A program made the translations under genes and the position numbers. The notes under the pieces were generated by a model. It worked only from the letters and a program-made list of their open reading frames with translations. It ran no database searches and had not been told where the DNA came from. From NCBI GenBank assembly GCA_902513955.1, contig CABXOW010000001.1, positions 1-44,277 of the forward strand: 44,277 nucleotides of DNA. Reading direction: 5' to 3'. Positions 28,637 to 35,050 of the stretch are shown piece by piece; positions within the stretch are counted from its first letter, which is position 1, and each line of letters opens with the position of its first letter. This DNA comes from an uncultured Pelagibacteraceae bacterium. Its GTDB lineage: Bacteria; Pseudomonadota; Alphaproteobacteria; Pelagibacterales; Pelagibacteraceae.

Positions 28637-29740
28637 ATGAAAATTGAACTAGAAGAAAATAAAGTTTACTTTAATAATGGGTCAATCATAAAAGAGATAC
28701 ACCCTCTTTGGTTAAGAGAAAGAGTAGATGGTGAAGAATTTCTAGACAAAGGCACTCAACAACGACTATTTGATCCAACATCTTTAAGCAGCGAAATATC
28801 AATTAATACAGCTATTATAAATGAAAAATTTCTTGAAATTGACTTTAACGATGGTGTTAAATCTAAATTAGATATTGATAAACTTGCCTTAGAGTTTTCT
28901 AATGATGATACAGTTATAAAATCTATTCCTAAAGTTAAATGGAACTCAACTTTAGAAAATATAAAGAATTTTGAATACCAAGATAACTTTTTTGACAGTA
29001 AAGAAATGTTTGATTTGCTTATTTCTTTCTATAAATATGGGTTTGTAATTATCAAAAACATTCCAACAGATAATAACTTTATTGTAAAATTTGCAAATAC
29101 AATAGGAAGTGTCAGAAGAACAAATTTTGGTGAATATTTTGATGTTAAATCAAAACCAGATCCAAATGATCTTGCATATACTTCTTTAGAGTTATCACCT
29201 CATACAGATAATCCATATCGTAACCCTGTTCCATGTATACAGTTACTTCATTGCATTGAAAGCGAGGTATCGGGAGGTCTGTCTACATTAGTTGATGGTT
29301 TTACAGTGACAGAAGATTTAAAAAAAGAAAATCCTGATTTTTATAAAATTTTAACTTCAGTAAAAGTAAGATTTAAATTCGTTGATAAAGATGTAGTTTT
29401 AGAAGATTGGTCGGAGTTAATTAGACTTAATGATGATAAAACTTTCAAACAAGTAAGATTTAGTCCAAGATTAGATTATGTGCCAATGTTAGATAAAGAA
29501 AAACTAGATCTATATTATAAAGCTCGTAAAAAATTGTCTAAAATGTATAACTCAGAAAAATACAGAATAGAGTTCAAGCTGGCTCCAAAAGATTTAATGA
29601 TGATGGATAATTATAGATTGCTTCATGGAAGAACTTCATATGAAGTAGAAGAAGGAAATAGATTTTTGCAAGGATGCTATATTGACTATGATAGTACCGA
29701 AGGAAAACTAAGACATTTAAAAAGAAAATTTAATATTTAG
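28637..29740 (+). CDS. Gamma-butyrobetaine hydroxylase-like Fe(II)/2-oxoglutarate dioxygenase
   Basis: A 367-residue enzyme with an N-terminal DUF971-like domain (1-95) and a TauD-type dioxygenase domain. The iron triad is H189 and D191 (HTDNPYR) and H330 (LLHGR); R342 (GNRFLQG) should hold 2-oxoglutarate. Relatives hydroxylate gamma-butyrobetaine, trimethyllysine or trimethylaminoethylphosphonate. The N-terminal zinc-site cysteines of typical enzymes are missing: the LWLRERVDGEEF stretch has none where LWLRDNC-type sequence is expected. The quaternary-amine substrate is inferred from family. It is monocistronic, with a 148-base gap downstream. Confidence 0.82.
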   Translation: MKIELEENKVYFNNGSIIKEIHPLWLRERVDGEEFLDKGTQQRLFDPTSLSSEISINTAIINEKFLEIDFNDGVKSKLDIDKLALEFSNDDTVIKSIPKVKWNSTLENIKNFEYQDNFFDSKEMFDLLISFYKYGFVIIKNIPTDNNFIVKFANTIGSVRRTNFGEYFDVKSKPDPNDLAYTSLELSPHTDNPYRNPVPCIQLLHCIESEVSGGLSTLVDGFTVTEDLKKENPDFYKILTSVKVRFKFVDKDVVLEDWSELIRLNDDKTFKQVRFSPRLDYVPMLDKEKLDLYYKARKKLSKMYNSEKYRIEFKLAPKDLMMMDNYRLLHGRTSYEVEEGNRFLQGCYIDYDSTEGKLRHLKRKFNI

Positions 29741-31843: not shown

Positions 31844-32008
31844 TTAATAATTAAGAAGTAGTAGAATAACAACAATGACAGCTATAATTGAACAAACGAC
31901 TATGTAATTCAATCTAATATTAAATTTTTTTTGAAAATATTCGGTAATTTTTTCCCAAAAAAGAACAATTAAAAGAACAATAATAGCTGGCAAAATATAC
32001 TTAATCAT
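31844..32008 (-). CDS. 54-residue two-helix membrane protein
   Basis: A short frame fills the gap between the ScfR and TauE genes: three bases after one, 13 before the other. It encodes 54 residues beginning MIKYILPAIIVLLIVLFWEK, then a polar loop ITEYFQKKFNIR, then a second hydrophobic segment with C39 ending LLLNY. Two clean membrane helices and the tight spacing argue that it is real. It may modulate the neighbouring transporter. I know of no named family. Confidence 0.6.
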   Translation of the reverse strand: MIKYILPAIIVLLIVLFWEKITEYFQKKFNIRLNYIVVCSIIAVIVVILLLLNY

Positions 32009-32011
32009 TAT

Positions 32012-33445
32012 CTAAGAATTATTATCGCTAACATAAACAGAAACTCCTCTAGAGTTTAAATCTACATCAAACTTTTTATGTAATGGTGGAAATGCTCTTT
32101 GAGAGCAATCCAAACGATCACAAGTTCTACAAGAGACTCCAATTGGTATTTCAGTTAATTTATCATTAATATTTAAATTTTCAGTATAAACAAAATCTTT
32201 TGCATATTTTGCATCACAACCAAGTCCAATAGAAAGTACACTCTTTGCTTGACCAAATCTTCCAATCCCTTTTTCAACTGTTCTTGCAATACAAACATAT
32301 TTTTCTCCATTGGTCATTTTGCTGACTGCGGCCTGTATAACACCTGGTCTTGTGAATGCAGAATAAACATTCCATCTTGGACATGCACCTCCATATCTTG
32401 GAATATCAATACCTGATAATGAAAACCTCTTTGAAATATTACCTGCCATATCTACTCTCAAAAAATGAAAAGGAATGCCTGGAAGTTTTGGATCTTGTAA
32501 ACACGTCACTCTGTGTGCAACTTGCTCAAATGAAGTTGCAAATGTATTTTGTAATAACTCTAAATCATATTTAAGTTTTTTGCATTCAGAATGAAAAAAT
32601 TTATAAGGCATAAGTATAGCAGCAGCACAATAATTTAATAACGCAACATTTGTTAGTTTTTTTGACTCATCTGATGGAAAACTAAATTTAGATAAGTAAT
32701 TATCTATTTCTTTGCTTGCACCTTCTTGTGCAATTTGTGCTGCAGCATGAAGTTTTTTTGTTTCTAAAGAGCTATAATCACTTAATAAAAGTTCTTTTTT
32801 ATTTTTTAAAAATATTTTTGAAAAAGGTTTATTTTCATCAGGAATTACATCTTTAACTATAATTTTATATTCTGAATTTAAGTATTCACACAACGCAATA
32901 TATCTAGTTCTGTTATTCTTTTGAATTTTATCAAAAACCTTATTTGCAAAATCTTCCAATTTTGGGAAATAATTTTTATTTTCTTGTAGAAAATCTGATA
33001 TAACTTCGCCTGGAAATGAATTTTTTCTATTATCTACTATTTTTCCAGAGATTTTTTCTATTTTGTTAATTAATTCATGATCCTTTTTTTTTAAAATATC
33101 TCCAAGTCTTACAATTGCTTTTCCAATCTTTGGGTTCGTACTAACTAGATCTTTAACCTCTGGCCCTAAAATATCTAAATCTTCAAACAATGTGTCATCT
33201 AAAATTTCAGATATATTGTTTTGCAAATTAATATCTGTTTTTGACGTTAAGTCAGATAAATTAATATTTAATTTTTCGCAAACTTGTAAAAGAAGATCTC
33301 CATCAATTTTTCTTTTCCCGCTTTCAATTAAATTTAGATAACTAGGGGAAATACCCAAATCTTCTGCTAACTTGTTAGCCTGAAGACCTAATTGCCTTCT
33401 AAAAGACTTGATTTTTGGCCCAATTTTAAGATCTAATTGACTCAT
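32012..33445 (-). CDS. ScfR-family (RamB/PccR-like) transcriptional regulator
   Basis: A 477-residue regulator with an N-terminal XRE helix-turn-helix (residues 8-62, ending NLIESGKRKIDGDLL), a central IrrE/ImmA-like region and a C-terminal ScfR domain. The central region has no HExxH peptidase motif (AAQIAQEGA is found there), as expected for a sensor rather than a protease. The C-terminus carries GVSCRTCDRLDCSQRAFPP, a four-cysteine cluster typical of this family. ScfR proteins sense short-chain acyl-CoAs and control aceA, propionyl-CoA and related genes. It is divergent from aceA and lies beside an array of TTTGTAAA elements, so it probably regulates itself and aceA. Confidence 0.87.
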   Translation of the reverse strand: MSQLDLKIGPKIKSFRRQLGLQANKLAEDLGISPSYLNLIESGKRKIDGDLLLQVCEKLNINLSDLTSKTDINLQNNISEILDDTLFEDLDILGPEVKDLVSTNPKIGKAIVRLGDILKKKDHELINKIEKISGKIVDNRKNSFPGEVISDFLQENKNYFPKLEDFANKVFDKIQKNNRTRYIALCEYLNSEYKIIVKDVIPDENKPFSKIFLKNKKELLLSDYSSLETKKLHAAAQIAQEGASKEIDNYLSKFSFPSDESKKLTNVALLNYCAAAILMPYKFFHSECKKLKYDLELLQNTFATSFEQVAHRVTCLQDPKLPGIPFHFLRVDMAGNISKRFSLSGIDIPRYGGACPRWNVYSAFTRPGVIQAAVSKMTNGEKYVCIARTVEKGIGRFGQAKSVLSIGLGCDAKYAKDFVYTENLNINDKLTEIPIGVSCRTCDRLDCSQRAFPPLHKKFDVDLNSRGVSVYVSDNNS

Positions 33446-33453
33446 ATTTTCTA

Positions 33454-33544
33454 TTTGTAAATTTTGTAAATTTATATTTACAATTTTTTTCTTTGATTTA
33501 CAAGGATTTTTACGTTTTTTGTGGATTTTGTAAATCTTGTAAAT
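33454..33544. promoter_or_regulatory. Multi-copy TTTGTAAAT operator-like array (candidate ScfR sites)
   Basis: Two 9-base tandem copies TTTGTAAAT lie at 33454-33471, next to the regulator start. Two inverted copies (TTTACAA) lie at 33477-33483 and 33497-33503. A further tandem pair lies at 33527-33544, TTTGTAAAT then CTTGTAAAT, just before the small ORF and aceA. They resemble the TTTGCAAA-type sites reported for RamB and PccR, with C changed to T. The arrangement covers the whole divergent promoter region. Confidence 0.6.
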
Positions 33545-33556
33545 TAAAAGGTTTAT

Positions 33557-33718
33557 ATGAACAAAAATTTAAAAAACACAGAAAATGAAGCTCAAATCAT
33601 TAAAAAAGAAGATTTAGATCAGCATAATAGTAGAGGTATCTACATGAGAGATGATCATTGTGATTGGGGTTCAAGTGGGATGAATGATCTTATTAAGTCA
33701 TTAGACGATAATAGCTAA
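33557..33718 (+). CDS. 53-residue acidic small ORF upstream of aceA
   Basis: A 53-codon frame begins 12 bases after the last operator copy and has AAAAGG as a ribosome binding site, ending 57 bases before aceA. The product is acidic and hydrophilic (many Asp, Glu, Asn) with a central MRDDHCDWGSSGMNDL stretch containing one cysteine and one tryptophan. I do not recognise a family. It may be a leader peptide, a small partner protein, or a regulator of isocitrate lyase. Confidence 0.55.
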   Translation: MNKNLKNTENEAQIIKKEDLDQHNSRGIYMRDDHCDWGSSGMNDLIKSLDDNS

Positions 33719-33775: not shown

Positions 33776-35050
33776 ATGAGTGCAGAAAATATCTCATACG
33801 ACCTAAAAAGATTTGCTGGAATAAAACGTGACTATACTGATGAAGAAGTTGAACGATTAAGAGGGTCGATAAAAATTGAATATTCTTTATGTAAAAATCA
33901 ATCTCAAAAACTTTGGAAATTATTAAATACAGAGGCTTATGTAAATACACTTGGTTCGTTATCAGGTAACCAAGCTGTACAACATGCTAAAGCTGGTCTA
34001 AAAGCAATCTATCTAAGTGGATGGCAAGTAGCTGCAGATGCAAACACTGCTGGTGAAATGTATCCAGATCAATCTTTATATCCTTACGATAGTGCTCCCA
34101 AGTTAGTTGAGACAATGAATAATTCTTTAGTAAGAGCTGATCAAATACAACACATGGAAATTCAAGATGGTGATATGAAAAAAGAAGAAGCTGTTGACTA
34201 TATGTTGCCAATTATAGCAGATGGTGAAGCAGGTTTTGGTGGTCCATTAAACGTGTTTGAATTAACAAAAAAATTTATTAGAGCTGGTTCAGCTGGAGTT
34301 CATTTTGAAGATCAATTAGCTAGTGAAAAGAAGTGTGGTCATATGGGTGGAAAAGTCTTAGTACCAACTGGCACAATGGTAAAAAACTTAAAATCAGCTA
34401 GACTAGCAGCAGATATAGCTGAAGTGCCATTAATTATTTTAGCAAGAACAGATGCAAATGCTGCAAAATTAATTACAAATGATTTTGATGAAAATGATAA
34501 ACCTTTTTTAACTGGAGAAAGATCACCAGAAGGTTTTTTTTATGTGAAAGATGGTATTGAACAAGCTATATCTAGAGGTCTTGCTTATGCACCATATGCT
34601 GATTTAATTTGGTGTGAAACAGCAACACCAAATCTTGCAGAAGCTAAAAAGTTTGCAGACGCAATACATGATAAATTTCCTGGTAAACTATTAGCATACA
34701 ATTGCTCACCTTCTTTTAATTGGAAAAAACATTTAAGTGATGATGAAATTGCTTCGTTCCAACAAGAAATTGCTAAGATGGGATATAAATTTCAATTTAT
34801 AACATTAGCTGGTTTTCACACGCAAAACATAGCCATATTTGAACTTGCAGAAAAATATAAAAAGGAAGGAATGGCTGCTTACTCTAGAATTCAACAACAA
34901 GAATTTTCAAGAGAAAAAGACGGTTACACAAGTGTTAAACATCAGAGAGAAGTTGGAACTTCCTATTTTGATGCAGTGTCAAATACTATTAGTAGTGGAA
35001 AAAGTTCAACAACTGCTATGGCAGGTTCGACTGAATCTGAGCAATTTTAA
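33776..35050 (+). CDS. aceA: Isocitrate lyase
   Basis: A 424-residue isocitrate lyase, the first enzyme of the glyoxylate bypass (isocitrate to glyoxylate and succinate). The catalytic signature is K185, K186, C187, G188 and H189 (KKCGHMGGK). Other conserved parts are [10 protein letters not shown] near residue 81, [10 protein letters not shown] near 147 and [11 protein letters not shown] near 170. Length is as expected. It has an AAGGA ribosome binding site and ends 28 bases before a strong terminator. Malate synthase is not in the window. Expression is probably controlled by the divergent ScfR regulator through the shared operator array. Confidence 0.95.

Follow-up and report, generated by a model that had tools for sequence, protein, structure and literature searches.

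A conserved six-box array between a RamB-like ScfR regulator gene and isocitrate lyase in SAR11 is a candidate operator of a known kind

A transcription regulator of 477 residues, encoded on the reverse strand (32012..33445), diverges from two forward-strand genes in the DNA of an uncultured Pelagibacteraceae bacterium (assembly GCA_902513955.1, contig CABXOW010000001.1, positions 1 to 44,277; this whole stretch of 44,277 bp is hereafter called the window). These genes are ORF53 (33557..33718), encoding a small protein of 53 residues, and aceA (33776..35050), encoding isocitrate lyase (723 bits with NCBIfam NF011645, above its cut-off), and they are presumed to be co-transcribed. The divergence of regulator and aceA is kept in all 131 SAR11 loci that we compared, a set that includes overlapping extracts of one place, among them that of this window. 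ORF53 was matched by tblastn in 128 of the 131 loci, and in 130 when using a looser search for its invariant DWG core, which lies in the conserved stretch GIYMRDDHCDWGSSGM. Its variability by codon position (0.129, 0.086, and 0.247) indicates a coding sequence. The protein has no match in Pfam; its strong matches are confined to the family, and the rest of the class gave two weak ones. ORF53 adds a new gene, for a conserved small protein, to the aceA unit. On the other side of the regulator, a hydrophobic ORF of 54 residues with no clear family match (31844-32008) precedes a TauE/SafE-type exporter gene. Further away, a TauD-type dioxygenase (28637-29740) is close to the 2-trimethylaminoethylphosphonate dioxygenase TmpA and to gamma-butyrobetaine dioxygenase but scores below both curated cut-offs. 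A search of the window and of the region upstream of malate synthase gave no Rfam match.

The original prediction named the regulator an ScfR protein, and its Pfam domains and sensing residues agree. It matches, above the cut-offs, HTH_3, the IrrE N-terminal-like domain (M78), and the C-terminal ScfRs domain (6.6e-59), and it aligns with the crystal structures of PrpR (E 1.6e-63). Cysteines C439, C442, C447, and C355 align with the Fe-S ligands C447, C450, C455, and C363 of PrpR. They provide the C-X2-C-X4-C motif and the additional cysteine that characterise the ScfR family, and they are invariant in the relatives found across the class. The basic residues that contact CoA in PrpR (K217, R338, K347, K410) also have counterparts (K206, R330, K339, K401); F155 is not conserved. 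In the recognition helix, SxSYLNLIE, the S-x-S-Y-L-N-L and the E are invariant and the I is found in 93% of a set of 28 class-level regulators, including two from SAR11. The regulators of nine SAR11 genomes have a second, duplicated N-terminal HTH, in open frames of 564-580 residues. Their arrays have 5-6 perfect boxes (mean 5.6) versus a mean of 4.2 in genomes with a single HTH, a comparison that is confounded by relatedness.

The 111 bp between the start of the regulator (33445) and ORF53 (33557) contain six exact copies of the 8-mer TTGTAAAT, at 33455, 33464, 33476, 33496, 33528, and 33537, in the order + + - - + +. These positions bear out the extent and the layout originally proposed for the array, i.e., a tandem pair, two inverted singles, and another tandem pair. 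The repeat itself had been described as six copies of TTTGTAAA; this form itself occurs exactly three times, and it is TTGTAAAT that all six share. Pair 1 (boxes 1 and 2, 33454..33471, forward strand) has a period of 9 bp, starts 9 bp from the regulator ATG, and has bases conserved at 91-100% across the 107 distinct intergenic sequences that we aligned from the genus. Box 3 (33476..33484, reverse strand) has the core TTGTAAA, whose complement TTTACAA is conserved at 95-100%. Box 4 (33496..33503, reverse strand) has a core conserved at 99-100%, and its ATTTACAAGC form is shared with other genera of Pelagibacteraceae. Pair 2 (boxes 5 and 6, 33528..33544, forward strand, TTGTAAATCTTGTAAAT) starts 73 bp from pair 1 in this genome, and over the 107 sequences this distance is always 73 or 74 bp, close to seven turns of the helix. 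It abuts the presumed promoter of ORF53-aceA, whose putative -10 element (33545..33549, forward strand), close to the ORF53 ATG, reads TATAA in relatives and TAAAA in this genome. In the alignment of relatives, T, A, and A at 33545, 33546, and 33548 are invariant and T at 33547 is found in 96%. A promoter scan gave matches that were not clearly above those of shuffled sequences.

Could such boxes occur at random in AT-rich DNA, as the original prediction asked of its own motif? For single copies the answer is yes, because TTTGTAAA is found 13 times in the window (29% GC) when 11.6 are expected. For the cluster it is no. The array has six copies of TTGTAAAT and every other 91-bp stretch of the window has at most one, which agrees with the density having been called unusual. 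None of 20,000 Markov simulations of the region had more than two copies, and among 3,000 simulations in which we counted any 8-mer, the maximum was five and none reached six. The boxes are also more conserved than the bases between them: mean conservation is 97% in box columns and 80% in the others (107 sequences, Mann-Whitney p 8e-12, a value to be taken as a guide only because the sequences are related). The start-to-start spacings are 9, 12, 20, 32, and 9 in 86 of these sequences and 9, 12, 20, 33, and 9 in the remaining 21. Other Pelagibacteraceae genera keep about three boxes. The conservation of the array across SAR11 makes chance untenable.

Similar boxes are found well beyond SAR11. 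Upstream of the 19 non-SAR11 alphaproteobacterial relatives of the regulator that adjoin isocitrate lyase, there are 41 TGTAAA boxes (3.3 in shuffles) and eight 9-bp tandems (0.02 in shuffles). The boxes are also enriched beside seven relatives that lack isocitrate lyase in the stretch examined, which suggests that they mark the type of regulator rather than aceA alone. Over all 26 relatives, the commonest spacing between boxes in the same direction is 9 bp. An origin of the motif as a SAR11 drift from TTTGCAAA does not hold: RamB-like regulators of alphaproteobacteria commonly have boxes of the TTGTAAA/TTTACAA type beside them, and the tested TGACAAACCTTACA box of Paracoccus denitrificans has the same form. 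For a more distant regulator (L188, 43% identity), we saw a TTTACAA tandem pair at the start of its own gene and, roughly 100 bp away at the far side, a pair of TGTAAA; the 1.5 kb examined contains no isocitrate lyase.

We then consider the distribution of the system. In 197 genomes of the order, regulator and aceA are both present in 101 and both absent in 92. The four exceptions, two with only a fragment of the regulator and two with only aceA, all have the missing part at the end of a contig; in one of them the contig begins within the regulator and the array is intact. This genome (assembly about 83% complete) has a single ScfR gene, and the exact tandem pair occurs in it at the array locus only. 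Within 46 genomes of the genus, exact pairs are all at the array locus except two, which lie in one coding region shared by two genomes. The other acetate or propionate targets for which a genome scan had been suggested did not appear, and the region upstream of malate synthase has no box. We also rejected a wider regulon based on near matches: close off-locus tandem pairs are few, pairs with one mismatch are only slightly more numerous than in the reversed-pattern control, and the only such pair in this genome lies within an ABC-transporter ATPase gene. Inverted pairs were likewise discarded as further sites, since the recurring TTGTAAAACTTTTACAA falls within a conserved thiamine-enzyme-like coding sequence. 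Given the single ScfR and the restriction of exact tandem pairs to the locus, the SAR11 array looks like a one-target local circuit, as seen by pattern-based scans that a weak or differently built site could escape.

In summary, the array is a conserved element with the features of a known kind of operator, here in a SAR11 version with six boxes. Very probably, the adjacent RamB-like ScfR binds it and jointly controls its own gene and the ORF53-aceA unit, a proposal drawn from comparative sequence evidence. Its CoA-site residues lead us to predict that it responds to CoA esters. Each 17-bp tandem pair (8-1-8) would be one strong site. Pair 2 lies against the presumed -10 element of the ORF53-aceA promoter and pair 1 close to the start codon of the regulator, and this arrangement suggests that both genes are under one control. 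The inverted singles are positioned where the contacts of an upstream activator would lie. Since seven helical turns separate the two pairs and place them on the same face of DNA, a tetramer, such as PrpR, or two dimers could bridge them. Binding of CoA esters would alter the oligomer or its contacts with DNA, thereby switching the glyoxylate shunt; the proximal pairs would limit expression and the inner boxes might activate it. The near-invariant TATAA directly after pair 2 indicates that the promoter probably overlaps the pair and that the ORF53 message may be leaderless. A more elaborate version, which we find doubtful, is a cooperative higher-order switch in which a tetrameric Fe-S/CoA sensor bridges the two pairs, CoA-ester and iron status together set entry into the glyoxylate shunt in SAR11, and isocitrate lyase or the regulator is the target of the ORF53 microprotein.

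Several other explanations were weighed against joint control by ScfR. The regulator might be a simple repressor of itself and of the aceA unit, without any bridging and with the inverted singles as accessory sites. Such a model restricts the explanation that we prefer and is compatible with ScfR binding, and the contact of pair 2 with a conserved TATAA, the proximity of pair 1 to the regulator ATG, and the ability of other genera to manage with about three boxes all fit it. However, the cores of boxes 3 and 4 show the same degree of conservation as the pairs, every spacing is fixed, also the 73 or 74 bp between pairs, and the RamB of P. denitrificans activates. We thus view it as a possible but somewhat unlikely account. 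Much further from the data is an AT-rich coincidence preserved because the genomes are closely related, or a set of promoter elements in place of an operator. The chance-level number of single TTTGTAAA copies is what it would predict, but clustering far beyond the simulations, boxes that outconserve the intervening bases of the same alignment, and the same boxes beside distant relatives leave it almost no probability.

Another regulator, e.g., Fur, could instead bind the array, in which case aceA would be tied to iron or light, not to acyl-CoA. In strain HTCC1062, whose genes we matched to this locus by gene order and annotation, both aceA (1.58x) and the divergent regulator (1.60x) go up when iron is limiting, at weak P values (PMC2864753). 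Expression of the regulator gene is also higher in the light. Upstream of it, a motif was flagged when variants of the Fur box were sought with relaxed criteria, even if the same published search found no classic Fur box in HTCC1062 (PMC3090418). Yet both the sequence and the 9-bp period of the boxes are those of the ScfR type, the boxes recur beside ScfR genes throughout the class, genomes without aceA are also without ScfR, and iron could act via the Fe-S cluster of ScfR itself. Binding by Fur or another regulator is in our view quite improbable.

SAR11 bacteria, which rank with the most abundant cells of the ocean, possess few regulators. Control by the local ScfR would give a precise operator candidate for one of their central carbon switches, and our results suggest a one-target circuit that persists throughout the family wherever aceA does. 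They also draw attention to a conserved small protein, as yet unstudied, whose gene immediately precedes that of isocitrate lyase.

Three known systems can be compared with this one. The RamB of corynebacteria is homologous to the SAR11 regulator over its full length, and it is also an ScfR adjoining the isocitrate lyase gene. However, the SAR11 protein scores 356.7 bits with the RamB equivalog NF038139, whose cut-off is 700, and is thus not a member of it. The PrpR of Mycobacterium tuberculosis shares the Fe-S cysteines and the CoA-contacting residues, and its footprint covers two units of 8 bp with a single base between them (8-1-8, PMC3420887). Its prpDC/icl1 site, TTTGCAAA-N-TTTGCgAA, and the SAR11 pair, TTTGTAAA-N-TTTGTAAA, are both palindrome-like 8-1-8 tandems (PMC3420887, PMC6765138). 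The differences are a change from C to T in the centre of the SAR11 box, a different phylum, and a target restricted to aceA in SAR11, with no sign of a role in propionate use. The closest operator is that of P. denitrificans RamB, a class 2 ScfR, which was tested in vivo and in vitro and has two 14-bp boxes, TGACAAACCTTACA and TGACAATACTGACT (PMC10370305; sequences derived by us from its oligos 46/48). The former is a 9-bp tandem of TKACA, the latter is TGACA/TGACT, and the distance from box to box is 32 bp, i.e., three turns (PMC10370305). In both organisms the ScfR gene diverges from a glyoxylate-shunt unit, and the SAR11 pairs share the 14-bp form, built from two TKACA-like units at a distance of 9 bp. 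The unit of P. denitrificans encodes malate synthase and isocitrate lyase, whereas in SAR11 malate synthase is elsewhere and a small ORF precedes aceA. With respect to the target gene, the boxes of P. denitrificans and the SAR11 pairs run in opposite directions. The RamB of P. denitrificans is an activator, whereas the position of SAR11 pair 2 suggests repression. Finally, two boxes with an 18-bp spacer suffice in P. denitrificans, whereas SAR11 has six, two of them inverted between the pairs: the kind of operator was already known, and what is new is the six-box SAR11 form, richer than the known glyoxylate-shunt switch.
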